Part shown: positions 14,112-41,548 of the stretch, in pieces | Layout: each line of letters opens with the position of its first letter | How positions within the stretch are numbered: position 1 is the first letter of the stretch | DNA from: Zymoseptoria tritici IPO323 | Taxonomy: Eukaryota; Ascomycota; Dothideomycetes; Mycosphaerellales; Mycosphaerellaceae | DNA length: 64,000 bases | Assembly (NCBI RefSeq): GCF_000219625.1 | Contig: NC_018214.1 | Coordinates: forward strand, 2,170,001 to 2,234,000 | Direction: 5' to 3' | Notes under the pieces: generated by a model | Databases searched by the model: none | What the model saw: the letters and a program-made list of their open reading frames with translations, nothing else | Told to the model about the DNA's origin: nothing | Program-made: the position numbers and the translations under genes

Positions 14112-15013
14112 ATATCTTCCGCCGCCGCGGCCCTCGTACGTAACGATTACGCTAGAAAGGTCCGCAACGGGACTTTTAACTACAATCCGTGCTTTAATTG
14201 TATTAAAGACATTAAGCAGAATAAAGACTTAACTAAGCTATACTAGTTAGCGTTAGAGAAGCCTATTAAGGGCATTACTGCCAAATGCGCCGGCTGTCTA
14301 GACGACAGAAACGCCGATTGCTTCTAGGTAGGATATTTCTAGACTGTTCTAGAGTCTTTTAGATCTAGGCTAACCCTAAATAGCTCCCTCCGGCCCGTAA
14401 GGACGAGTAGGATACTATTAATGCCTAGATTTAAGCAGAGTACGCTAATCCGGTAGCGAACGCGGACAACAAGAAGAAGTTAAGGAGTAAGGTGCTCCTG
14501 TTTGCTAGTTCGATTAAGTTGTATATGCCGTTCTAGCTTATTTTAGACTAGTATGCTAACTGTTAGCGCCTTAGGGAGCTTAGAAACAGCGTTCGCGGCC
14601 CGGAGGGTCTTACTTTGCACTAGGGTACCGGCGAGTAGGACACGTCGGGTTAAAAGGTTAAGAAGCGGGACAGGTCGGCCGCTGCTTATATAGAAAAGGC
14701 CGTAAGTGTACCGTTCTAGCGCATTTTAGACTATGCTAATACTAGGATGTAGGAGCAGGCTACTGCCGGGACCCCGAGGTCTAAGAGAAGCCGCCTAATT
14801 AATCTAAAGGGCGCTATTATAGTCTAGTCGTTAACAGAAAAGCTTAATAAGTACAAGACTGCCTTATATCGTAACAGCAAGGCCCTAGAGAGGTTTAATA
14901 TGTACGCTAGGGGTACGGGAAAGACTAATAGGGAGGCGTTAAAGGCTTTAGTGCGTACTACGGCCGCTTAGGAGCGTAGAGAGGACGCTTTAGACGAGGA
15001 TAGCGATAATTAA
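14112..15013 (+). pseudogene. Gypsy-1 antisense accessory gene encoding a CxxC/CxxC(x7)C protein
   Basis: Antisense to Gypsy-1 pol, between the chromodomain end and the 3' LTR. A frame can be followed from ATA 14112 (a likely RIP-mutated ATG, then SSAAAALVRNDYARK) to TAA at 15013. One 56 bp intron is predicted (14328-14383; donor GTAGGA, branch CTAAC, acceptor ATAG), phase 0, for about 281 residues. The N-terminal part holds NPCFNC, 28 residues, then KCAGC-x7-CF and a TAG where Trp is expected, just before the donor. The remainder is basic and helical (KKKLRSKVLLF, LTEKLNKYKTALYRNSK). Most stops are TAG at plausible Trp/Gln sites. It matches the accessory gene of Gypsy-2A/2B in position, orientation, Cys pattern and intron site. 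The function is unknown. Confidence 0.6.
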
Positions 15014-18532: not shown

Positions 18533-18562
18533 TTTGTTTGTTTGTTTGTTTGTTTGTTTGTT
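18533..18562 (-). repeat. LINE-A 3' tail, (AAAC)n
   Basis: Reads as TTTG repeats on the plus strand, directly next to the left TSD. The same tail ends the fragment at 13060. Confidence 0.85.
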
Positions 18563-21397
18563 CCATTTACGTCCTGTAGGAGTCTATAACTATGTAGGAC
18601 GGCTGTCTCGCGACAGCAGTCTATCTATGTACAATCGTTGTTCTCTCGTATCTCTTAACCTTAGGGAAAGACCCGTGCCTAGGATAGTAGCAAGCTAGTA
18701 TCGAAGGACTTTAAAGAAAGACAAATAAGGAAAAGTAAAAGGAGTGTAGGCTAGACAGTCTCGTCTTCGCCTCTTGCTAGGTGCTAGGACCTAGAAGCAA
18801 TCTTTGTATCCGAGAGAAAGGTAGTAAGGTGTTTCCGGAGTTCCTTATCTTCTACTATTTCTAGTAGAGATTGTGCTTGTCGTAGCGGTAGTAGCCTAAA
18901 TACATCGTAGATAGGGCAGCTATATACGAGGTGTTCTGCTGTTTCTCGTCGTCCGCAAGGGCAGTCTAGCGTCGTTGCGTGTCTAAAGTAATAGAGATAG
19001 GACTTTAGGTATCCGTATCCTAATAGGATAGTATAGAAGGCACTAGTTAAAGCGCGTCTTCCTCCTATTCTATGTTTTCCTAGCGAGCTCTATAGAAATC
19101 GACTAAGGTAGCTATTTGTATTCCTAGGTACCTTATTAATCTCCCGTTGTCTTGCTATTTCGTATCGGGTTTTCTAGACGCTAAAGAGATCGTCTTTTGC
19201 GTAGTTAGCCCTCTCGTGTTCTACGAAATGCTTGTATTGTCGGAGTCGATAACAGAGTAGTTGTATCTATATTCTCTATCGTTTTTGCGGAAGTATCTCT
19301 CTCGAGTCCTCGTGTTAGACTTCTCGCATATCCGAAGGCGCGCTTTAGATAGCGAGTCTTACAGGGTGGTTTTCGGGTAGCTTTGCTACGCGTAGAGAGT
19401 ATAAAATTGACTGTCTCTCTAGGCGTAGATCCGGGGGGAAGAGATTTAACTCTACTTCGGACGGGACGTTTAGGGCAGTACGGAAAACGCCTAGGATCTT
19501 CCTACAAGCTTTACTTTATAGAGATACTAGAGGTTTTATACTCTTTTTCGACCGCTACCAAACCGGGGCCCTGTAGTCTACTATTGTAGTAACGCAGGCT
19601 AGGTAGATCTTTCTTAACGATATAGAAGACAGACCGCGTTCGGTATTTGCTAGTCTTTCTAATTAATAGAATGCTGCTTGTACTTATGCCGATCTTATTG
19701 CAATATGCTCCTTAAAGGTAAGACCGGCATCTAGCCAAATCCCAAGCTACCTTATCGCTTTCTTCGCTAGGCAAACAATATCGCCGTTTGGAAGAATTAC
19801 CAGGCAATCGGACCCTTTTCCTTTCGAGAAGTGTATTAGGTCTGTCTTTGCTAGGTCGAAAGCAATCGAGTTCTTCTTTCCTAGGTCTATTAGCCTTCTT
19901 GCTTTACGTTCTAGTACCTTAGAGTTCTTCTTAAGGGACGTAGACGAGGTAGATAGTCTAATGTCGTCGACGTAGGAACTAGGAGTAACTCCTTGTAGCG
20001 AGAAGAATATATCGCGCGTATAGATAAGAAAGAGGATAGGAGACATTAGGCTGCCTTGCGGAACGCCGATCTCTACGTCCTGGAATTCCTATATCTGTCC
20101 GTCGAATGCTATTCGTAGGCGTCTATTGCTTATAAACGACTAAACCTAATGTATAAGGCTATGCGGAAGCCTTAACTAGATTATTATTCTTAATAGTCGG
20201 TTCTTTGCAACGTAGTCGTATGCTCCTCTTACGTCGAGGAAGATAACCGAAGTCTTCTTTTTCTTTCTTCGATTCTCCTCGATTTCGTTCGTTAAGAGAA
20301 GCACCGTATCGATAGCCGATTTCTTCTTTCGCCCTCCTAACTGCGAGTCGTGTAGAAGGGGCTTCGTCTCTGCGATAATCCCTAGGCGTTTTGCGAGTAT
20401 TCTCTTACTAATCTTACTAAGGCAGTTTAGGAGAGAGATAACTTGGTAGGCCTTAGGGACCGAATAGTCTGGTTTTCCCGGCTTTGCTAGAACTGCGCCT
20501 GTCGCAACTTTCCAGCATCGGGGGTAGTGTCCTTCGTCGAGTAGCCTCCTATATATACGTAGAAAGGTAATAGGAATAGCGCCGTACGCTTTACTAATAA
20601 TAGCTTACGTAATACCGTCTAGGCCCGGCGTTTTTCCTTTTACTATCTTCGTACTATAGGCGGCAGCGAGTTCCTCTTTAGTTAGCGTAGTCCAGCCCTA
20701 ATCCCCGGCTGTATACGCTTCCTAACGGCTAGGTAGAGGTTCCTCGGCAGGAGGGCGCGGAAATAAGGCTTCGGAGAAGGCCTTACATTTCCCCTCGAAA
20801 GAATCCTCGTTGTTTATCGTAGGTATCTGTCTTCGGCTGCTGTTCCTAGTATAGGACATAGCTTTAAAGATAGATTTCGAGTCTTCTTTTTCGAGGAAAG
20901 CGTTCTAGTAGTTCTTCTTAGCTATTTTAATAGCTTAGAAGTACTTGTTTCTTGCTTTCGTATACGCCTCTTTCTCGTCTAGCGTCGGCGTACGTCCGCA
21001 GGTAAAGGTCTGTCTATATGTTCTAGACATTGTGCGGCGTAGCGTGCGTAGCTCTCTATTCTACCAAGGTTTTGCGCAGGCGTGTACTACTTTCTCTAGG
21101 ATTGCTCCCCGTATCGATTCGGTAATATACGAGGTAAAGGAGTCTGCGATGTCGTCGAGGGAGTTCGTATAGTTAATAGACGTCGCCTTGCTTATTAGGA
21201 GATCTGTAAACAGTTCCTAATCCGCGGAAGCTATGTCTAGAACTACTTTCTTCTGTTAGGCTCGATCTTGCGCGCTAATAAGGTCTATAGATATAGCCTT
21301 ATAGTCTAAGCCTGTCGGAATCGTTCTCCAGTCGATTTCTTTCGTAGATAAGGATCCTCTTGTAAACGTAAGGTCTAGGACCGACTCTGCGTCTAGG

Positions 21398-21612
21398 TGT
21401 CACATCTGCCTCCGCCGAATACCGACAATCGGCATCTGATCCCCTGCCTTAGCGGCATATGCACCCCTACTAGGGCCTTTTGAGCTCGTTTAAGCTAGAT
21501 TGCGCCTGTAGTATAAGGATACGTAGAATCTCCTCCTTCCGAGAGAGTATCGAATCGAGTCTGTTCTAAAGTGATTTATACTGCTACTCTATCCTTAATT
21601 GCACCTTTTATA
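21398..21612 (+). repeat. Gypsy-2B 5' LTR
   Basis: 215 bp, ending TTTTATA where the 3' LTR has TTTTACA (a CpA-to-TpA change). ATCGAATCG at 21549-21557 is complementary to CGATTCGAT in the bases after the LTR (21613-21624), so a transcript starting there could self-prime. Confidence 0.9.
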
Positions 21613-22960
21613 TACGATTCGATCTACCCTACAGTACGACGAATTACTTCCGAGATAGCTTCGTCTCGTCCCGGCCTATTAGGGAGCAAGAGCACCCGTC
21701 GCCGTGCGAACGAACCCGCTAACGACCCGGAGACTATAGAAACCTCCACTTAGACCGTCGTTAGCGACGACGAAGACGCCGAAGGCGGGCCTAAAAACCC
21801 GGAAGAACCTATCGGGCACTAGGATGCCGCTAACGAGGGCGAAGAAGAACCGGAGAACCCTCTATAGGAAGAAGACACTCCACCTAAGGGAGAAGAAGAC
21901 GACATTAATGAACAAATCCGCAAGGAAGAGGCCGCTACCGCCAGATAAGAGCGCCTCCTCTAGCTTAGCCTTCTCTAGGCACGCAACAGGGCTATAAGGG
22001 ACCGCACCGCCTAGGTATAGAACGGATCTATCCCTACTATCCTGCCCGATGCCCTAGTTCGGCTATCCATCCCTAAGAACGCGCTCCTAAAGGCCTGGAA
22101 TCCCCACATCTTCGAGGGAAAGAACCGCGCTAACTGGGAATAGTAGCAGGAAGACATTAACCGAGCAATCAACCGGGCTAGCATAGCCACTAACGAAGAA
22201 AAGATAGAATTCGCTAAAGAATAGATGGCGAGACCCTAAAAGCAGCACTAGAAGCGCCACCTTCTCGATAAGGCACCTGTTCGGCTAACATAGAGCGACA
22301 TGTAGCTCGTAATGTTGGATTCTATAGGTACAAAAGACGAACGCACCCAAAGAGCTATAGATAATATTAAAGAGGCCAAATAGGGCGACAGGACCCCAAC
22401 CGGGCTAATAAACTACCTAAAAGAACAGTAGGATAAGATCGGTTGCACCGACATTCCTAGGATAATCTATAAATTTAAGGGAGCTCTTACCCCGGCGGTT
22501 AGAAACAGGCTCGAACAGGGCTAAGTTACCCTTACGACCCTCGTAGATGTGGAGGAACGAGCTAATATATCGTACCGACAGATACAGGAATTTAACAAAA
22601 AGCGCTTAGCGAAGACTTCCGTCGACGAGACTAACGGAAGGCGCCCAAACAAAAACAACAAGCCCCCGAGTAGGCCAAGAAGGGCCAAAACCCCCCCGAA
22701 GGCGGCTAATAAAGAGAAGTCGGCCACCGCCTACTAGACATGTAGCAAAGAGGGCCACCGGCGCTAGGAATGCCCTAACAAGGACCAGTCGGGAAAAGGG
22801 AGAGCCCGCAGTAGATCCCCTCTAATCGCTGCGGGTTAAGTCCAGTACTTAGAGGCCTAAAGAAAGGCTGCCGAGCCAGGAGGAATTCCCCGAACTACAG
22901 GGGAAAGGCTAATACGCCTTAAAGTGGAGATGCAGGGTCCTAATAGGACTAAGACACTCC
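21613..22960 (+). pseudogene. Gypsy-2B gag with zinc knuckle
   Basis: Long degraded gag frame rich in Glu, Arg and Ala. Intact parts include EERANISYRQIQEFNKKRLA (22549 on) and a CCHC knuckle near 22729-22776 whose first Cys has become Tyr and whose Trp codons are TAG (T-C-S-K-E-G-H-R-R, stop, E-C-P). Gypsy-2A keeps the first Cys but loses the His, so the two copies together show the ancestral motif. Confidence 0.8.
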
Positions 22961-25900
22961 GAGCACTACTCGATTGCAGAGCGCAAAGCAACTTTATAGA
23001 CAACATAGCAGCTAAAGAGCTAGGCCTGAGCCCCGAGTTGGGGCAAACGGCCTAATACGTAGCACTAAACAGCCAGAGGATAGCTGTTCAGGGAGAATGC
23101 CACGTCCCGTTCAAAGTAACGGACACTTAAGGACACACAAGAGGATATGTAGAAACCTTCGCAGTCGGAAGAATCCACGGGTTCTAACTAGTCCTCGGCA
23201 TGCCCTAGCTAGAACGATAGAACCCGAGGGTGAACTTTATCCGCAAAAGCGTCACCTGGAAGGGGACGAAAGGCAGACAATAGAGGCCGGTTAGGCTCGT
23301 CTTACCTAAAGAGTTCTAGAAGGACGCCTCCGGCATCCCTTCGGGGCGCGTTTAGGCCCTTGCCGCTTAACGCACAGACGACGCGCCAAAAGAACCGGAA
23401 CTTCTAAGCGAATTCTCGGATTTCGCGGACGTTTTCGCAGAAGGAAACGAGTCCCTTCTCCCCGAGACGGGGCCGAATAAGCTCAGTATCGACCTCGAAG
23501 AAGGCAAGGAGGCCCCGTACGGCCTATTATACAACCTCTCTGTGACAGAACTAGAGACTCTGCGCAATTACCTCGCCGACAGCCTAGAGAAGGGGTAGAT
23601 CCGCCCCTCGACCTCCCTAGCGGGGGCAGGCATCCTCTTTGTAAAGAAAAAGGACGGCGGCCTACGTCTGTGCGTCGACTACAGGGCCCTTAATGCCGTT
23701 ACTATTAAGAATAGACACGCCCTGCCCCTCGTCTAGGAATCTCTGGACTAGTTGGCGCCGGCAAAGTTCTTTACAAAGCTAGATATACGAGACGCGTACT
23801 ATCGCATCCGAATTAAGGAGAGTAACCAGTAGAAAACTACCTTTCGGACGAGGTATAGCCACTTTAAGTACACTGTAGTCCCGTTTGGGCTGACCAACGC
23901 CCCAGCAGTGTTCCAAGGATACATAAACTACGCCCTCCGGGGCCTGCTAGACTACTATGTTATAGTATACCTCGACGATATCTTGATATACTCACAAGAC
24001 GCCGAAAGCTACAAGAAACACGTTAGGATAGTCCTCGAGAGACTCAGAAGACACCGACTCTTTACCAAACTGTCAAAGTGCGAGTTCTTTAAGCGGCAAG
24101 TCGGCTACCTTAAGTTCGTAGTAACCCCAAAAGGGGTCGAAATGGAGGCAGAAAGGATCCAAGCTATCGCTAACTGGCCCCTTCCGGCCTTAGTTAGGGA
24201 CATTCGCATCTTTATCGGATTTGCGAACTACTACTGCTAGTTTATTAAGGGGTTCTCCCGCATAGCTGGCCTACTAAACCGCTTAACAGAAAGAGGCCCA
24301 AATAGTGCTAAAGGAGGACACCGACAGAGAAAGGAGGAATTAGTTCCCCTCGAACTCCTACCTAACGCAGTACAAGCATTCTAGCAGTTAAAGACCAGGT
24401 TTATTAAAGCGCCTATCTTGCGGCATTTCGACCTAAAACTGCCTATCCGCGTCGCAACAGATGCCTCTAGGTTCGCCGTCGGGGCAGTACTGTCCTAACC
24501 GCATAAAACAGAGGGCAAAATGCACTAGCACCTAGTAGCCTTCTTCTCTAGCAAGATAAACGCGGCCGAAAGGAACTATAATATACACGATTAAGAGCTT
24601 CTCGCTATAGTCGAGGCCTTTAAGCACTAGAGACACTACGTTAAGGGCGCTTCGCACCAAATTAAGGTCTTAACAGACCATTACAACCTAAAATAGTTTA
24701 TAACAACTAAGCAACTAAGCCGAAGACAGGCAAGATGGGCAGAGCAGCTGTTAAACGTCGACTTCCGCACAACGTACAACCCGGGGTCGCTTAATGCCGC
24801 CGCGGACGGAGTAAGCAGACGCCCAGACTTAAAAGACAGGGACCACTCGGGACGGTAGATTAACGAAAGCGACAGTGCTCCTGCATTAGACACCCTTCGG
24901 CACCAACTGGGTCTGTCCGAGGGAATAACGGCCGAATCCAGCCCCGTTTGGTCTATAATAGCAGTTATAACCTACTATCTGCAGCTCGCCAGGACCTACT
25001 GCAGCAAAACGTACATAATAGCGAGCACTCTGATAGAAGAATTATCAGACTCCCCGCTAATTGATATAATACGCGAAAGCCTGAAACATAACCCTATGGC
25101 ATCGACAGTCGAACTAGCTATAAATGACCCGGATCCGCCGGAATGGACCTAAAGGTAGGCTATATAGGGCGAATTCCTCTTCTACGAACGGAAACTGTAC
25201 GTGCCTGCGGGCCCAGTACGCCTGGCAGCTCTCCGCTAGTGCCATAACGATCCCCTAGCCGGCCACTTTGGGTTTAAACGGACCCTAGAGCTGTTGCAAC
25301 GGTCGTTCTACTGGCCGGACATGAGAAAATACGTTAAGGACTACGTAAACAGCTGCCAGACATGCGACAGGGCGAAGCTACAGCGACATAGCCTATATAG
25401 AGAACTCTATGCGGAAGCTCCACCAAACGGGCCCTAGGAGGACCTAACATTGGATTTCATTACTGATCTGCCCCTAAGTACGTTCATAGGGCACACATAC
25501 GACTTAATCCTCGTCGTTATAGACAGGTGGTCCAAAATAGCCCACTACATTCCCGTACGGAAGGACATTAACGCCGAAACCCTCGCGGAGGTCTTCCTGA
25601 GAGAAATCTTCCGCCTTTACGGAACTCCTAAGTCAATTACGTCCGACAGAGGACTAATCCTTACATCCAAGTTCTAGAGCACGCTTTACTACCACCTTAG
25701 GGTCCGAAGGGGCCTAAGCACTGCATATTACCCCCAAACGGACGGTTAGACGGAACGTTAGAACCAAACGCTAGAGCAATACCTACGAGTGTACTACAAC
25801 TACGAACAGGACGACTAGGCACAGATGCTGTCGGTGGCCGAATTCTCTTACAACGATAGCGTTTATGCGACAACAGGGGTAACACTATTCTAAGCATGTA

Positions 25901-26455
25901 ACGTTCGCGATCCAATTGCCGCTAGATAGCCCGACCTGCCCTAATTAAAGGGCAAAGCTCCCAGTGCGGCGGAAATAGCGCACAGAGTAATCGGCCTACA
26001 GAAAACGCTACATAAAAGACTGGCTGCGTCACAGGAGAGACACGTACGATACTACAATGCTCGCAAAACTGCGAAAACGTACAAGGTTAGCGACCGTGTG
26101 TACCTCTCCACTCGATATTTGAAGTCCATCCGGCCGTCGGAAAAGCTCGATTACAAGTATGTCGGCCTATATAGGATTAAGCGAGTCGTGAACGACGTCG
26201 CGTATACGCTAGAACTGCCGGAAACGATGAACATCTATCCTACATTCTACATCTCCCTACTAGAGGAGGAAAAACCTGCCAAAATTACTAAACGGGCCCA
26301 GAATAGCCTAAAGGAGATCCGATTAGAGGAACCCGACGTTTACGTAGTAGACAAGATCCTAAAGCGTAAGAAACAACACGGCAGATGGATATATAGGATC
26401 GCGTGGAAGGGCTGGCCCGCGTCTAAAAACACTTAGGAACCTGCGACTTATATTA
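22961..26455 (+). pseudogene. Gypsy-2B pol: protease, RT, RNase H, integrase, chromodomain
   Basis: Domains in order: protease-like LLDCRAQSNFID (22966 on); RT with [34 protein letters not shown] and YLDD at 23968-23979; RNase H with RVATDASRFAVGAVLS and NYNIHD.ELLAIVEAFKH; integrase zinc region H-x3-H...CQTC (25240-25375) and core LDFITDLPLS ... VVIDRWSK (25450 on); C-terminal chromodomain YVVDKILKRKKQHGRWIYRI (26340 on) followed by AWKGWPASKNT. The RT and chromodomain blocks are open over more than 100 codons. Other stops are TAG/TAA at Trp/Gln positions. Confidence 0.9.
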
Positions 26456-26656
26456 GCCCTACTACGATAAGAGCATTTAATAGAAGTACGGGAGGTACTA
26501 AGGGCGGTAGACTAGCACGATAGATATACAAACGCGTTATTAGTCACTATTAAGGCCCCAAAGACACCAGTTAACACTACACTAACTCCTTAGTCCGGTT
26601 CCTAGTTACCTAAAAATTTTCTCTACCTTAGAAGAATTTTAATCTAATAAAATCCT

Positions 26657-26667
26657 AGGGGGGGAAA
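26657..26667 (+). promoter_or_regulatory. Internal polypurine tract after pol (Gypsy-2B)
   Basis: AGGGGGGGAAA directly downstream of pol looks like a canonical chromovirus PPT, yet the 3' LTR is 1.45 kb away and has its own PPT. The same tract is in Gypsy-2A near 39877. The accessory gene lies between the two tracts. Confidence 0.5.
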
Positions 26668-26875
26668 TTAGGGGCCAAACGGGCCCCTAAGGACGACATT
26701 ATCACATAACGAGAGACAATCGAGCACAGTGAAGTTATTTTGATTCTATCTAATCTATAAGTCGCCAAGTCGTAGCAAAAAGAAACAACCCGGGCGTTAC
26801 CGCACCTATTAGTCCTGAAACGAGCCTAAAAGAGGCCAAAAGAGATAAAAGAAACACGAAAAAGGGCTTACATGC

Positions 26876-27859
26876 TTATTCCTTAGGCTTAAGGTCCCTA
26901 GAGAGGTCGTACTCGGTCGGACGGAGCACTCCCTCTATAACGGAGGCCTTCGAGCCCTTCTTAGCGCCCGCACGGGTGTAGACGGTGTCCAGAGCGGCCG
27001 AAAGGGCCCGAACGCGACGCCTTAGGCGGTCCTCGGTAGATCCTTAGGCCAGAATAAGTCGCTTGCGGGGGGTGTTAGGCACGTCTTCACCCTGTTAGGG
27101 TTAGTAGGGCACTTTTAGGCAAGAAGGGACCCGAATACTTACAAGCTCCCTCTTTCGCTTTACAGCCTCCTTAGCGAGTAACTTCTCGCGCTTTCTAAGC
27201 ACAAGCGGTCCCGTCTGGTCGAATTCGGCCTTGCCTTAGTGCAGATAGAGGCTGTTAACACCGGTAAAGGAGTTAAAGCGCCTAAAAGGGGGTTAACGGA
27301 GCTAAACAGACCCGAACTAACTACACATACCCCTTAATGCGCACGTAGACCGCCTTGTAGGCCGAATAAGCCGCCGCAGCCATCGCTCCGGTACTATCGG
27401 CGGCAATAGCGGCCCTGCGGAGCTTATTAGCCCTCGTAATGTCGCCTTTAACTAGTTCCGGCATCTTTTAACTACATTAGCCCCCGAAAGCCCCCTTTTG
27501 ACCCTGTGTGTACTTACCTAGAAACAATCGCGGTTGGAGCAATTGTGACACTTTAGGTAATATTCGTCCTTATTATTAGTTGCCTACTTGTCCGGCGATT
27601 CGCGCGCAAAGAGGCAGAACTGGGCTAAATCGGCCTTGTTTGAGGGCTTGTTAAGGCAGTTGACGCACGGATTGCCCTTGAAGATGCCGTTGGCGGCGAA
27701 TTGCTTGCGTTAGGTCGCGATGGAGGCGGGTTGCGCTATAATAGGCTCGTTCGGTCGCGGATAGGGTCGTTTGGTAAGAATAGCGGTTTTTCGATAGAAT
27801 TCGAGGACGTCCGGTGGAAAATAGGGCTAGAAAGGAACTAAACGCTACGTTAGCACTAT
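26876..27859 (-). pseudogene. Gypsy-2B antisense accessory gene: spliced CxxC/CxxC(x4)C protein
   Basis: Antisense to the element. Four exons are predicted: ?-27518, 27464-27331, 27251-27143 and 27091-26876. The introns are 53, 79 and 51 bp with donors GTAAGT, GTATGT and GTAAGT and AG acceptors; the third has an ACTAAC branch site. All junctions stay in phase and the last exon is open to TAA at 26878-26876. The protein is about 267 residues if it begins near ATA 27859, a possible mutated ATG. It has a Cys module (GNPCVNCLNKP, 35 residues, KCHNC-x4-CF, TAG for Trp, first intron), an Ala/Arg-rich helix (ITRANKLRRAAIAADSTGAM), a basic segment (LRKREKLLAKEAVKRKREL) and a tail with EDRLRRRVRALSAALDTVYT. 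Only about four stops occur, all explicable by RIP. Function unknown. Confidence 0.65.
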
Positions 27860-28109
27860 ACAGGCTACAAATGCCCCTTAGGGGGGCACTTTTAGACCTG
27901 TTTAGCCATCGGATAGGATTAAGTTACACTTACTAAGTCTGCACAAGGTTGTTAAAGAAGAGAAGAACTCGAGGGATCCGAGCCTAGGTTTTGAAGCCGC
28001 AGTAGACCCTGATTAAGGCCTTAGGCTATTAAACTTGGCAAACACCAAAAAGAATTTACTCGAGGTGAAACCGTTTAGAGCGCGACGCTCTGCGCAAGGA
28101 GGGGGGCTA

Positions 28110-28324
28110 TGTCACATCTGCCTCCGCCGAATACCGACAATCGGCATCTAATCCCCTGCCTCAGCGGCATATGCACCCCTACTAGGGCCTTTTAAGCTCG
28201 TTTAAGCCAGATTGCGCCCGTAGTATAAGGATACGTAGAATCTCCTCCTTCCGAGAGAGTATCGAATCGAGTCTGTTCTGAAGTGATTCATACTGCTACT
28301 CTATCCTTAATTGCACCTTTTACA
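28110..28324 (+). repeat. Gypsy-2B 3' LTR
   Basis: Partner of 21398-21612, preceded by the polypurine tract AAGGAGGGGGG (28096-28106). Confidence 0.9.
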
Positions 28325-28979
28325 CTAGGTGCGGCCTATAGAAGGTCCCGACACCTATCGTATTACGTAGAGTAAAGCCCTAGTCTTCTATCTACTCTAT
28401 AAATTCGCGGGCACTAGTAGTATCCTTTCCCCTCGGATCCTAGGACGGGTGTCTAAGGTTAAAGTCTCCTACTAGTAGAGTGTTTAGAAGGAACGTGTTG
28501 CGTAGAGAGTAGAGGCTTCTCTCTGTTATTCGTCGGTTTTGCGGGTTCTCGGTATCTCGAAGGTCTTTCTCGTTATAGAGATTAACTATCTGGATCTTGT
28601 TGCCCCTCTTGTCTAAAATAACAAAGGAAAGTATGTCGCTATCGTCTAATAAAATAGGAGAGATATTAACATTAAGTCTTGTGCTAATATATAGCATTGT
28701 CCTTAGCCGGATCGTCGAATCCGTAGTCGTTAGGAATAGCTAGTTGTACTCCCGGTATGCGATAGATCTTGTCTCTTTGTAGCCTGTTATCGGGTCTTCT
28801 ATAGTCTATAGTTCCTAGACTAGTAGAAGGTCGGCTTTCTGCTTAACCGCGATGTCTAAGGTAGACTCTGTAGCCTCGATAAATTAGTTAAGATTAACAT
28901 AGAAAATCTGTAGAGAGTGTTCTAACATGTAGAACGTTCTAGGGGCCTCCCTTTCTGTTGTATACAATCCTTCGCCTTC

Positions 28980-30094
28980 TCGACTCTTAGGCTGTCCGCG
29001 CCTACGTATAGACAGTTTTGAATAGCCCTTTTTGCCTCCTCCTCGGTAGCAAAACCTACTAGAACTGTCGCCCTAGTAAGAGTCCTTCTTCTCTCTTCGT
29101 TTGTTAGCTAAATCGGGGTGCCTGCGAGTTTAAGACCTCTATTAAAGGTCTTAATTTCTCGTTAAATGTCCTATAGGCCCGTTAGCGTGTTAAAGTTCGC
29201 GGTCGAGACGCCGTAGACTACGACCTTATGCTAGAGAGAGTCCTCTATTACCTATGCCTCGCCTACGATATCGGTAACCTTAGTAAGGCTATCGATTGTT
29301 CGTTAGCGGGCTTTCTCTATTGCAAAGTTTAGGACAATGTTACCCTAAAATAATTTCTTTATCGCAAGGACAGCTAGCTCTTAGTCTTCACCTTTAAGAG
29401 CGTCGTTAATTTTGTCTCGGGTTGCGATCTAGTCGAGTTCCTTCTCTTTATCCTTTAGTACAAGGATAAGAGGCATTAGTTCTGCTTGTTCTTTCGGCTT
29501 ACTAGCCCTCCGGGAGACGGTCGTCTACTGTTGTTGTTGTTATTGTTGTTGTTGTTGTTATGTTGTCTTTGTTGTCGAGGAGGTAGAGGTAGAGGTAGCA
29601 GATCCGCTGTTACCCTTAATAACGTCTGCGAAAGTAGGCTTCTTCGCCTGTGCTACTAGTTTCTTTGTTGTTATTTCTAGGTTCGAGACTTGCTTTGCGA
29701 GGATTTAGGACGTTGTCCTAAAGTCTGTACGCTCGGTAAAGTGCCGAAAGACTTTAAGAAGGTCGAGAACCTAGGTTTGTTCTTCTAGAAACCCGACTAG
29801 ATCCCCCGCCGCTTCGACTAGTAGCTGTCGGGCTTGTAGGATCTTCTCGTTCGCGGGCGTGTAAGAGAGTGTTTGTTTCTTTCCGAGAGAAGGGCTACGA
29901 GTCGGGGAGATACTAAATTCGAAGGGGTTTTGCCTTTTCCTAGATAGGAAAGGAATGCCGGTTCTTTTTAGTAGTTCCTCCGGCAACGGCAGGGTTTTAA
30001 GAGACTTAAACGTAACTTCCTCGTCCCCTCTAGCCGTAGCTTTTGGAGTCTAAGGGGCTAAGCTTGCGTCTGTCATTTCCGTCTTAGTAGACAT
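28980..30094 (-). pseudogene. LINE-A ORF1
   Basis: Starts with ATG 30094 (MSTKTEMTDASLAP) just after a CAA/CAG-type repeat. An internal intact stretch is 29986-29771 (PEELLKRTGIPFLSRKRQ ... LVEAAGDLVGFLEEQT). A TTG/CAA microsatellite at about 29527-29570 lies within it. It probably encodes the nucleic-acid-binding ORF1 protein; no zinc knuckle was identified with confidence. Confidence 0.55.
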
Positions 30095-33000
30095 TGTCTT
30101 GTTGTTGTTGTTTGTTGTTTAAAAAGAGGCTTAGCAGTCTTTTACCGAGAGGGCTACTTGTTCGTCTCTATTTCTAATCGCGTTCGGGTCCTAGCCTACT
30201 TGCGACACTAGGGCACTCTTCTCCCTACTATACAAGAGTATAGGAGAAGGTATACTTTAAAGAGGAGAGAAGAGATATATAAATATACCTCTGCTTCTAG
30301 GAAGTACTCTAGCCTGCAGTAACGTGCGTCTTTGTAGCAGGCTTTAGAGGCGTTCTGCAGGTAGCTGTAGCAGGTTCGGGACAACCTTTATCTCTAGGGA
30401 AAGGTAGGCCTATACTCTATATAGAGTATCTAGCTATATAGCTAGTACTACTACTCTAATCCCTAGAGGTGCAAATTCGTCCTTACTAAACTACACTGCT
30501 CCTTTAGCTTCCTCTCTCGGCGGCGTAGGACAACAGGTAACTCTAGTGTAGAGAGAACTAAGTGTATGTGTATGTTTGTGTATCCTAGGAACACTGCTCT
30601 TGTTTGGCCTTTAGCTCTTTTAAAATTCGACTAAATTAGGCGTTTGATAGCTAAAATAAACGCTCTCGTCGAGGGCTTTTAAACGGGCTACACGGCGTCC
30701 GAATCGGCGGCGTATTAGTTGTGTTGTAGTGTGTTAAAGTGTTGTAGTACAGGTTGTAAACCTTCCTTGTGCAATGCCCTAAACAGGGAATATTCCGAGT
30801 ATAGGGGAGGTAAGGTCGGAATAAGGTTTCGGAGGTGGGGGCCAAATCCCGGAGTTTAGCAAAATTTGCACCCTAAAGGGGGCAACAAGGTGAATCTTTG
30901 AACTCTAGTAGCGGCGTGGGTTTTAAGGGCAGCGGGGTAAATGCGGGTTCGTTGGAACGGCCTTGATAAGGGCTTTCGAATGGTGCGTGTTTGGTGATGA
31001 ACAGGTCAATATTGGGTGTGCAATGGAAGTGCGGATGTCGATGTCGAGCACTGCTCGATTATAGAGCACAAAGCAACTTTATAGATAATATAGCAGCTAA
31101 AGAGCTAGGCCTAAGCCCCGAGTTAGGGCAAACGGCCTAATACGTAGCACTAAACGGCTAGAGGATAGCTATTTAGGGAGAATGCCGCGTCCTGTTTAAA
31201 GTAACGGACACTTAAGGATATATAAGAGGATATGTAGAAACCTTCGTAGTCGGAAGAATCTATAGGTTCTAACTAGTCCTCGGCATGCCCTAGCTAGAAC
31301 GATAGAACCCGAGGGTAAACTTTATCCGCAAAAGCGTTACCTAGAAGGGGACGAAAGGCAGATAATAGAGGCCGGTTAGGCTCGTCTTACCTAAAGAGTT
31401 CTAGAAGGACACCTCCGGCATCCCTTTAGGGCGCATTTAGGCCCTTACCGCTTAACGTATAGACAACGCGCTAAAAGAACCGGAACTTCCGAGCAAATTC
31501 TCGGATTTCGCGGATGTTTTCGTAGAAGGAAACGAGTCCCTTCTCCCCGAGACGGGGCCGAATAAGCTTAGTATCGACCTCGAAGAAGGTAAGGAGGCCC
31601 TATACAGCCTATTATACAACCTCTCTATAATAGAACTAGAGACTCTGCGCAACTACCTCGCTAACAGCCTAGAGAAGGGGTAGATCCGCCCCTCGACCTC
31701 CCTAGTAGGGGCAGGCATCCTCTTTATAAAGGAAAAGGACGGTAGCCTATGTCTGTGCGTCGACTATAGGGCCCTTAATGCCGTTACTATTAAGAATAGA
31801 TACGCCCTGCCCCTCGTCTAAGAATCTCTGGACTAGTTAGCGCCGGCAAAGTTCTTTACAAAGCTAGATATACGAGACGCGTACTATCGCATCCGAATTA
31901 AGGAGAGCGACTAGTAGAAAACTGCCTTTCGGACGAGGTATAGCTACTTTAAGTATACTGTAGTCCTATTTAGGCTAACTAACGCCTTAGCAGTGTTCTA
32001 AGGATACATAAACTACGCCCTCCGGGGCCTGCTAGACTACTATGTTATAGTATACCTCGACGATATCTTAATATACTTACAAGACGCCGAAAGCTATAAG
32101 AAACACGTTAGGATAGTCCTCGAGAGACTTAGAAGACACCGACTCTTTACTAAACTGTTAAAGTGCAAGTTCTTTAAGCGGCAAGTCGGCTACCTTAGGT
32201 TCGTAGTAACCCTAAAAGGGGTCGAAATAGAGGCAGAAAGGATCTAAGCTATTGCTAACTAGCCCCTTCCGGCCTTAGTTAGGGACATTCGTATCTTTAT
32301 CGGATTTGCGAACTACTACCGCTAGTTTATTAAGGGATTCTCCCGCATAGCTAGCCTACTAAACTACTTAATAGAGAGAGGCCTAAATAGTGCTAAAGGC
32401 GGACACTAACAGAGAAAGGAGGAATTAGTCCCCCTCGAACTCCTACCTAACGTAGTGCAAGCATTCTAGTAGTTAAAGACCAGGTTTATTAAAGCGCCTA
32501 TCTTGCGGCATTTCGACCTAAAACTGCCTATCCGCGTCGCAATAGATGCCTCTAGGTTCGCCGTCAGGGCAGTACTATCCTAACCGTATAAAACGGAGGG
32601 CAAAATGCACTAGCACCTAGTAGCCTTCTTCTCTAGTAAGATAAACGCGGCCGAAAGGAACTATAATATATACGATTAAGAGCTTCTCGCTATAGTCGAG
32701 GCCTTTAAGCACTAGAGACACTACGTTAAGGGCTCTTCGCACTAAATTAAGGTCTTAATAGACTATTACAACCTAAAATAGTTTATAACAATTAAGCAAC
32801 TAAGCCGAAGATAGGCAAGATAGGCAGAGCAGCTGTTAAATGTCGACTTCCGCATAACGTACAACCCGGGGTCGCTTAATGCCGCCGCGGACGGAGTAAG
32901 CAGACGCCTAGACTTAGAAGATAGGGACTACTCGGGACGGTAGATTAACGAAAGCGACAGTGCTCCTACATTAGACACCCTTTAGCACTAACTAGGTCTG

Positions 33001-33315
33001 TCTAAGGGAATAACGGCCGAATCTAGCCCTGTTTAGTCTATAATAGCAGTTATAACCTACTATCTGCAGCTCGCTAGGACCTACTATAGCAAAACGTATA
33101 TAATAGCGAGCACTCTAATAGAAGAATTATTAGACTCCCCGCTAATTAATATAATACGCGAAAGCCTAAAACATAACCCTATAGCATCGATAGTCGAACT
33201 AGCTATAAATAACCCGGATCCGCCGGAATAGACCTAAAGGTAGGCTATATAAGGCGAATTCCTCTTCTACGAACGGAAACTATATATGCCGGCGAAGGAT
33301 TAATAACCTTAGATC

Positions 33316-40094: not shown

Positions 40095-41061
40095 TTATTC
40101 CTTAGGCTTAAGGTCCCTAGAGAGGTCGTACTCGGTCGGACGGAGCACTCCCTCTACAACGGAGGCCTTCGAGCCCTTCTTGGTGCCCGTACGGGTATAG
40201 ACGGTGTCTAGAGCGGCTAAAAGGGCCTAAACGCGACGCCTTAGGCGGTCCTCGGTAGATCCTTAGGCTAGAATAAGTCGCTTGCGGGGGGTGTTAGGTA
40301 CGTCTTTACCCTGTTAGGGTTAGTAGGGCACTTTTAGGCAAGAAGGGACCTAAATACTTACAAGCTCCCTCTTTCGCTTTATAGCCTCCTTAGCGAGCAA
40401 CTTCTCGCGCTTTCTAAGTACAAGCGGTCCCGTCTAGTCGAATTCGGCCTTGCCTTAGTATAGATAGAGGCCGTTAATACCGGTAAAGGAGTTAAAGCGC
40501 CTAAAAGGGGGTTAATAGAGCCAAACAGACCCGAACTAACTACATATACCCCTTAATGCGCACGTAGACCGCCTTATAGGCCGAACAAGCCGCCGTAGCT
40601 ATCGCTCCGGTACTATCGGCGGCAATAGCGGCCCTACGGAGCTTATTAGCCCTCGTAATGTCGCCTTTAACTAGTTCCGGCATCTTTTAACTACATTAGC
40701 CCCCGAAAGCCCCCTTTTAACCCTATATGTACATACCTAGAAACAATCGCGGTTAGAGCAATTGTAACACTTTAGGTAATATTCGTCCTTATTATTAGTT
40801 GCCTACTTGTCCGGCGATTCGCGCGCAAAGAGGCAGAACTAGGCCAAATCGGCCTTGTTTAAGGGCTTGTTAAGGCAGTTGACGTACGGATTGCCCTTAA
40901 AGATGCCGTTAGCAGCGAATTGCTTGCGTTAGGTCGCGATAGAGGCGGGTTACGTTATAATAGGCTTGTTTGGTCGCGGATAGGGTCGTTTGGTAAGAAT
41001 AGCGGTTTTTCGATAAAATTCGAGGTCGTCCGGTAGAAAATAGGGCTAGAAGGGAACTAAA
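40095..41061 (-). pseudogene. Gypsy-2A antisense accessory gene
   Basis: Counterpart of 26876-27859 in Gypsy-2B with extra RIP changes. Predicted splice sites are still visible, though weakened: the first donor is GTATGT instead of GTAAGT and the second GTATAT instead of GTATGT. The stop codon is at 40097-40095. The 5' end is unresolved. Confidence 0.55.
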
Positions 41062-41543: not shown

Positions 41544-41548
41544 CTCGG

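Follow-up and report, generated by a model that had tools for sequence, protein, structure and literature searches.

Antisense accessory genes of mobile elements are, as a kind, already known. In Boty-like elements of Botrytis cinerea, one such gene, brtn, was reportedly described by Zhao et al. in Virology in 2011. The accessible portions of PMC8365987, PMC7264820 and PMC4227169 cite brtn of Boty-like elements, and that of PMC5987419 names BRTN. As far as these portions describe it, its host is a Gypsy element of an ascomycete with a chromodomain in gag-pol, and brtn lies there on the antisense strand, after pol and before the 3' LTR. The plant aORF-3R genes (Grande gene23, RIRE2 and Retand TRP28) share this place and strand, and nuclear or DNA-binding roles are proposed for them in the available text of PMC7264820 and PMC11963269. 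The Retand type is defined there by PF04195, and the accessible main text of the Retand paper contains no word beginning with 'intron'. An antisense protein gene that requires the spliceosome is also on record, namely a homing endonuclease gene, itself interrupted by a spliceosomal intron, inside a nuclear group I intron; expression of this gene is demonstrated in the available part of PMC9548176. According to the accessible text of PMC7264820, it is not known what function antisense genes serve in LTR elements.

The gene of Zymoseptoria tritici described here resembles brtn in strand, position and type of host element; the Z. tritici gene has a six-cysteine module and three coding introns, which are conserved. 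It agrees with the plant genes in place and strand and differs from them in host, and the TRP28 profile (PF04195) did not match the antisense proteins scanned. Like the homing endonuclease gene it is an antisense protein gene of a mobile element that would need the spliceosome, but it belongs to a different element class and encodes a different protein. We found no description of this gene: no paper announcing it in Z. tritici appeared among the open-licence papers and listings searched, as far as their text was accessible, and the word 'antisense' is absent from the main texts of PMC10652580, PMC4502367, PMC9970103 and PMC3248453.

Structure of the antisense gene and its host elements

The window is a 64,000-nucleotide stretch of Z. 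tritici IPO323 (C5:2170001-2234000), and the genome searched comprised 39,686,251 bases in 21 contigs. As the preliminary description had proposed, Gypsy-1, Gypsy-2A and Gypsy-2B each carry a gene on the strand opposite to pol, located after pol and ahead of the 3' LTR, with homology beyond that of shuffled sequences; this is the position of an aORF-3R protein gene. Copy alignments and three strain proteins, P0001 and P0003 (strain 1E4, Gypsy-2 type) and P0002 (strain 1A5, Gypsy-1 type), give the following features.

21393-28329, plus strand: Gypsy-2B element (self-blastn)
About 21398-21610 and 28110-28324: LTR repeats of Gypsy-2B (self-blastn)
22900-26698, plus strand: pol frame of Gypsy-2B, broken by stops
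27952-27975, minus strand: pyrimidine-rich tract upstream of the gene, a possible promoter or start region
27838-27933, minus strand: probable leader (5' UTR) intron, GT and AG in 26 of 26 covering copies
27518-27739, minus strand: Gypsy-2B exon 1, six-cysteine module (copy alignment, P0003)
27465-27517, minus strand: Gypsy-2B intron 1, 53 nt, phase 0 (copy alignment; crossed by P0003)
27331-27464, minus strand: Gypsy-2B exon 2 (P0001, P0003)
27282-27330, minus strand: Gypsy-2B intron 2, 49 nt, phase 2 (acceptor from P0001; P0003 agrees)
27143-27281, minus strand: Gypsy-2B exon 3 (P0001)
27092-27142, minus strand: Gypsy-2B intron 3, 51 nt, phase 0 (copy alignment; crossed by P0001)
26876-27091, minus strand: Gypsy-2B exon 4, basic end and stop (P0001)
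40095-40958, minus strand: Gypsy-2A copy, exons 40958-40737, 40683-40550, 40500-40362 and 40310-40095
14112-15013, plus strand (element on the minus strand): Gypsy-1 copy, exons 14112-14327, 14384-14520, 14575-14701 and 14753-15013

In Gypsy-2B the gene thus comprises 237 codons including the stop, in four exons separated by three GT-AG introns; the introns of the Gypsy-1 copy measure 56, 54 and 51 nt. Every copy in the window is broken, with 5 internal stops in Gypsy-2B, 9 in Gypsy-2A and 10 in Gypsy-1. Established knowledge implies that introns on the antisense strand are retained through retrotransposition.

Several junctions were predicted ahead of the strain proteins and then recovered in them: Gypsy-1 introns 1 and 2 in P0002, Gypsy-2 intron 1 in P0003 and intron 3 in P0001. 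Altogether P0002 and P0003 cross introns 1 and 2 and stop within exon 3, while P0001 begins in exon 2 and crosses introns 2 and 3. The Gypsy-2 intron-2 acceptor was taken from P0001 and is hence not independent of it; P0003 agreed afterwards and supplied the start. The available text of a paper on strains 1A5 and 1E4 (PMC5765654) reports gene calling by BRAKER with RNA-seq intron hints, and we infer that P0001-P0003 stem from that run; the in planta RNA-seq of both strains (SRP077418) is treated there as stranded. No full-length, stop-free copy or protein was seen among the copies read and the three strain proteins.

These data revise the earlier gene model at several points. For the Gypsy-2B introns, the junctions of 1 and 3 stand as first drawn, but the intron-2 acceptor is 27282 (P0001, P0003) rather than 27252. 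The start had been placed at 27859, a position that falls within the probable leader intron; P0003 begins at the place of 27739. The leader intron itself is crossed by no protein model. In copy L011 the sole ATG between the pyrimidine tract and the start falls inside it, and the tract, located before this intron, is by eye near-identical between Gypsy-2 and the third family introduced below. Exon 1 was said to end in C-F-W, whereas both P0002 and P0003 read C-F-Q, and such an exon end in front of GT also fits the ordinary donor context. The CxxC-(28 or 35)-CxxC spacing was right in length (13+1+14 or 13+1+21) but overlooked a third cysteine in between, so that the module reads C-x2-C-x13-C-x14-21-C-x2-C-x4-7-C. 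This third cysteine is replaced by tyrosine in the window's Gypsy-1 copy.

Some introns of the gene resemble one another. Among 66 intron pairs compared, Gypsy-1 introns 2 (14521-14574) and 3 (14702-14752) have 17 of 19 bases in common (z 7.8, 300 shuffles), introns 1 and 2 of the third family have 14 of 14 (copy L051), and the leader intron matches intron 3 of Gypsy-2 at 16 of 18 (copy L011). Likeness among introns of one antisense gene possibly reflects duplication or conversion. Introner-like spread was considered and rejected: the Gypsy-1 intron 2/3 stretch has 79 genome matches, only part of which were mapped, and many are paired 183 bases apart as in Gypsy-1.

The pol of Gypsy-2B scores above the Pfam cut-off for RVT_1, Integrase_H2C2, SH3_Tf2-1 and Chromo, and below it for rve; with a Ty3-type pol and a C-terminal chromodomain, Gypsy-2B is a chromovirus, an assignment by Pfam that concerns Gypsy-2B only. 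By self-blastn, Gypsy-2A consists of several pieces, the last ending at 41548, and Gypsy-1 lies on the minus strand, split around the Gypsy-2 elements. The interval 13548-44940 is apparently nested, Gypsy-1 holding Gypsy-2A, which in turn holds a stretch (18537-31044) with Gypsy-2B inside; Gypsy-2A is additionally interrupted at 33294/38421 (self-blastn). Within 12-47 kb and 59-64 kb of the window there are stretches that bear a RIP mark (TpA up, TpG and mostly CpA down), with CpA depletion weakest at 31-41 kb, and 1-12 kb and 47-59 kb are without it. Two pol stop codons, at 25816 and 25942 (plus strand), are common to 25 of the 25 Gypsy-2 copies compared, which suggests RIP hot spots.

Copies, homology and descent

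Exon-1 matches number at least 117 genome-wide over three families: at least 52 of Gypsy-2, at least 44 of Gypsy-1 and at least 21 of a third family, F3 (44-49% identity to the Gypsy-1 query). Of 69 matches to the Gypsy-2 query, 52 were of Gypsy-2 type and the other 17, all weak, of Gypsy-1 type; the Gypsy-1 query also gave 69, namely 44 Gypsy-1, 21 F3, 3 further Gypsy-1 pieces and 1 Gypsy-2. Every match falls in one of the three sequence families, and no separate host-gene-like match was found. As with aORF-3R genes, most copies of the element carry the gene, since the 52 Gypsy-2 exon-1 matches compare with 54 RT matches (73-100% identity) among the 150 of 330 RT candidates scored, a comparison of totals and not copy by copy. 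The RIP-broken families contrast with two other Gypsy RT matches, at C18:290747-291433 and C1:5978306-5979010, whose open frames run to 870 and 1399 residues and have no stop within the matched part.

For Gypsy-2, 29 of 32 sequences (30 loci, 2A and 2B) passed the span filter, and 28 remained once a duplicate of 2B was dropped, 26 of them covering exon 1. All 26 copies that cover intron 1 have GT and AG at its borders, and so do all 28 for intron 2; for intron 3, AG is present in 28 of 28 and GT in 18 of 28. The six cysteine codons read Cys in 17 to 25 of 26 copies and tyrosine in the remainder, the change RIP would give. Intron patterns were readable in 12 of 25 Gypsy-1 and 3 of 14 F3 copies, the rest failing the pattern.

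Sequence similarity between families was assessed against 2000 shuffles. Exon 1 of Gypsy-1 and Gypsy-2B aligned with a score of 93 (shuffle mean 25.6, sd 4.9, maximum 52, z 13.8), and exons 2-4 with a score of 75 (shuffle mean 33.8, maximum 61, z 7.0). For exons 2-4, Gypsy-1 and F3 gave z 25.4, whereas Gypsy-2B and F3 scored 50, below the best shuffle of 59 (z 3.5). The preliminary description had placed intron 1 at the same site and in phase 0 in Gypsy-1 and Gypsy-2; this proved correct and extends to introns 2 and 3, all three coding introns occupying aligned sites in phases 0, 2 and 0 in Gypsy-1, Gypsy-2 and F3. Each of the three families probably has a leader intron as well. The single ancestral gene suggested at the outset is supported by the sequence, cysteine spacing and three intron sites that the families share; Gypsy-1, Gypsy-2 and F3 carry one homologous gene.

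The two families first compared had been called different. Their LTRs may indeed differ, but they are relatives in pol, with 50-54% integrase identity. Antisense identity (Gypsy-1 to F3 37%, Gypsy-1 to Gypsy-2 30%, F3 to Gypsy-2 29%) tracks integrase identity (Gypsy-1 to F3 69-70%, Gypsy-2 to either 50-54%; to or among three other elements 30-39%), and inheritance from the families' common ancestor, rather than separate capture, is therefore the simplest route. A caveat is that RT does not separate one outside element: RT identity is 76-77% between Gypsy-1 and F3 and 52-55% from Gypsy-2 to both, and the RT of another element, in stretch L051, is 55% identical to Gypsy-2, as close as Gypsy-1 and F3. 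In five stretches from other families (L071, L072, L073, L075 and L076) an exon-1 profile found nothing better than E 1.8, a search that could miss a more diverged gene; a sixth stretch, L074, contained a Gypsy-1 copy and served as positive control. L073 extends about 3.6 kb beyond RT, and L072 and L076 lack an integrase match, so the end of pol is perhaps unspanned there.

Constraint, product and competing explanations

RIP cannot cause purine/pyrimidine (transversion) mismatch. Between Gypsy-1 and F3 (copy L051, frame-blind alignment) this mismatch was 0.256, 0.231 and 0.335 at codon positions 1-3, with a one-sided P-value of 0.0065 for the third-position excess; two further F3 copies gave 0.239, 0.24 and 0.324. 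Integrase, our yardstick, showed far stronger constraint (0.093, 0.031 and 0.247). Introns (0.216) and flanks (0.223), for their part, are no more diverged than the first two codon positions, so constraint on the antisense protein is weak or shifts fast. Within families, dN/dS is powerless: differences are mostly transitions, and the few transversions follow no codon pattern (columns 6, 3 and 3 of 247 at positions 1-3 and 6/161 in introns for 24 Gypsy-1 copies; 22/817 in exons and 4/153 in introns for Gypsy-2), so no constraint is visible.

Neither the strain proteins nor the alignment rows matched Pfam or NCBIfam, and the loose likeness to a known CxxC domain that had been suggested was not found in domain searches. 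The PDB comparison gave no convincing match. At E 5, none of the 4 alignment rows scanned, some with X, matched any Pfam family, PF00172 (Zn2Cys6) included. Zn2Cys6 factors follow C-x2-C-x6-C ... C-x2-C-x6-8-C; the module here is like them in its two CxxC pairs, six cysteines and basic neighbourhood, and unlike them in its longer loops (13 and 14-21 residues). Protein searches, weak at such distance, returned no relatives outside Z. tritici; the plasmid DNA search gave no match, and of 9 stretches in viral contigs that fitted a pattern, none was a relative. The ratio of K+R to D+E is 36:17 in P0001, 21:16 in P0002 and 18:11 in P0003. Two predicted structures are poor (mean pLDDT 39.9 and 53.1).

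Overall, we consider it probable that this is an antisense accessory gene, inherited by three Ty3/Gypsy families (with a chromodomain shown for Gypsy-2B), that encodes a zinc- and nucleic-acid-binding regulator. The gene would descend from the common ancestor of Gypsy-1, Gypsy-2 and F3 and would probably be transcribed from its own putative promoter adjoining the 3' LTR, toward pol. Splicing would remove the leader intron and three coding introns, and the product would be a basic protein, about 236-246 residues long, whose N-terminal six-cysteine module probably binds zinc and whose basic C-terminal part is probably helical. The protein would most likely bind nucleic acid and modulate the expression or life cycle of the element that carries it. 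A role in regulation, nucleic-acid binding or chromatin is plausible; we favour an accessory regulator that binds nucleic acid, in view of the six-cysteine module, the excess of basic residues, the likely helices of low-confidence models and the roles suggested for such proteins in other elements. Against this explanation we count the weak constraint, the low score of Gypsy-2B with F3 in exons 2-4, the poor structure models and the lack of any full-length stop-free copy among those read, and also the non-independent intron-2 acceptor and a shared exon-3 stop. One aligned exon-3 codon is a stop in 12 of 12 Gypsy-1 and 3 of 3 F3 copies read, and P0002 ends there; it could be a RIP hot spot or mark a genuine shorter product, and because of this shared stop and the P0002 end the product could be shorter. 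Fixed stops spread by a decayed master copy are not favoured, as fixed stops also occur in pol of that family, at two sites in 25/25 copies.

A bolder and doubtful form is that the spliced zinc-binding regulator senses chromosomal state, because the gene is readable only from integrated DNA through nuclear transcription and splicing, and controls the element's transcription, silencing or chromatin targeting. If true, it would be the equivalent, in fungi, of the antisense regulators of retroviruses.

Kinship with Boty, in which the gene would be BRTN in another fungus and both would represent a single ancient antisense gene shared among chromoviruses of ascomycetes, seems to us rather unlikely. 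Both genes have the same place and strand in Gypsy elements with a chromodomain, as far as the available sources describe them, but no protein named BRTN was among the protein search matches; such kinship can be compatible with an inherited regulator gene. It is unlikely, too, that a host gene was captured once, backwards with its introns, by the families' ancestor and is now a useless passenger. The short GT-AG introns and likely leader intron do look like those of an ordinary fungal gene, and constraint on the frame is weak; yet the structure was retained although integrases fell to 50-54% identity, a separate host-gene-like match is lacking (element location was not checked match by match), and protein searches led to three Z. 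tritici proteins only. Still less probable is that the antisense RNA matters and not the protein, by pairing with sense RNA and feeding silencing or damping expression. Introns and flanks are conserved as much as codon positions 1 and 2, and for plant elements the accessible part of PMC7264820 discusses effects of antisense RNA, but an RNA needs neither cysteine spacing, in-phase introns and protein similarity nor a third-position excess. A chance open frame or RIP artefact, to which the stops in every window copy might point, we regard as already refuted by the shuffle tests, shared introns and strain proteins.

The regulator gene thus preferred would give the wheat-leaf fungus Z. tritici a small cysteine-rich protein encoded where repeat masking ahead of gene prediction would probably hide it. 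Three families in one well-studied fungus make pol available as a yardstick of divergence, and their shared intron structure reveals the direction of reading. RNA data exist for this fungus, so the expression, splicing and usefulness of such genes can be asked about directly.
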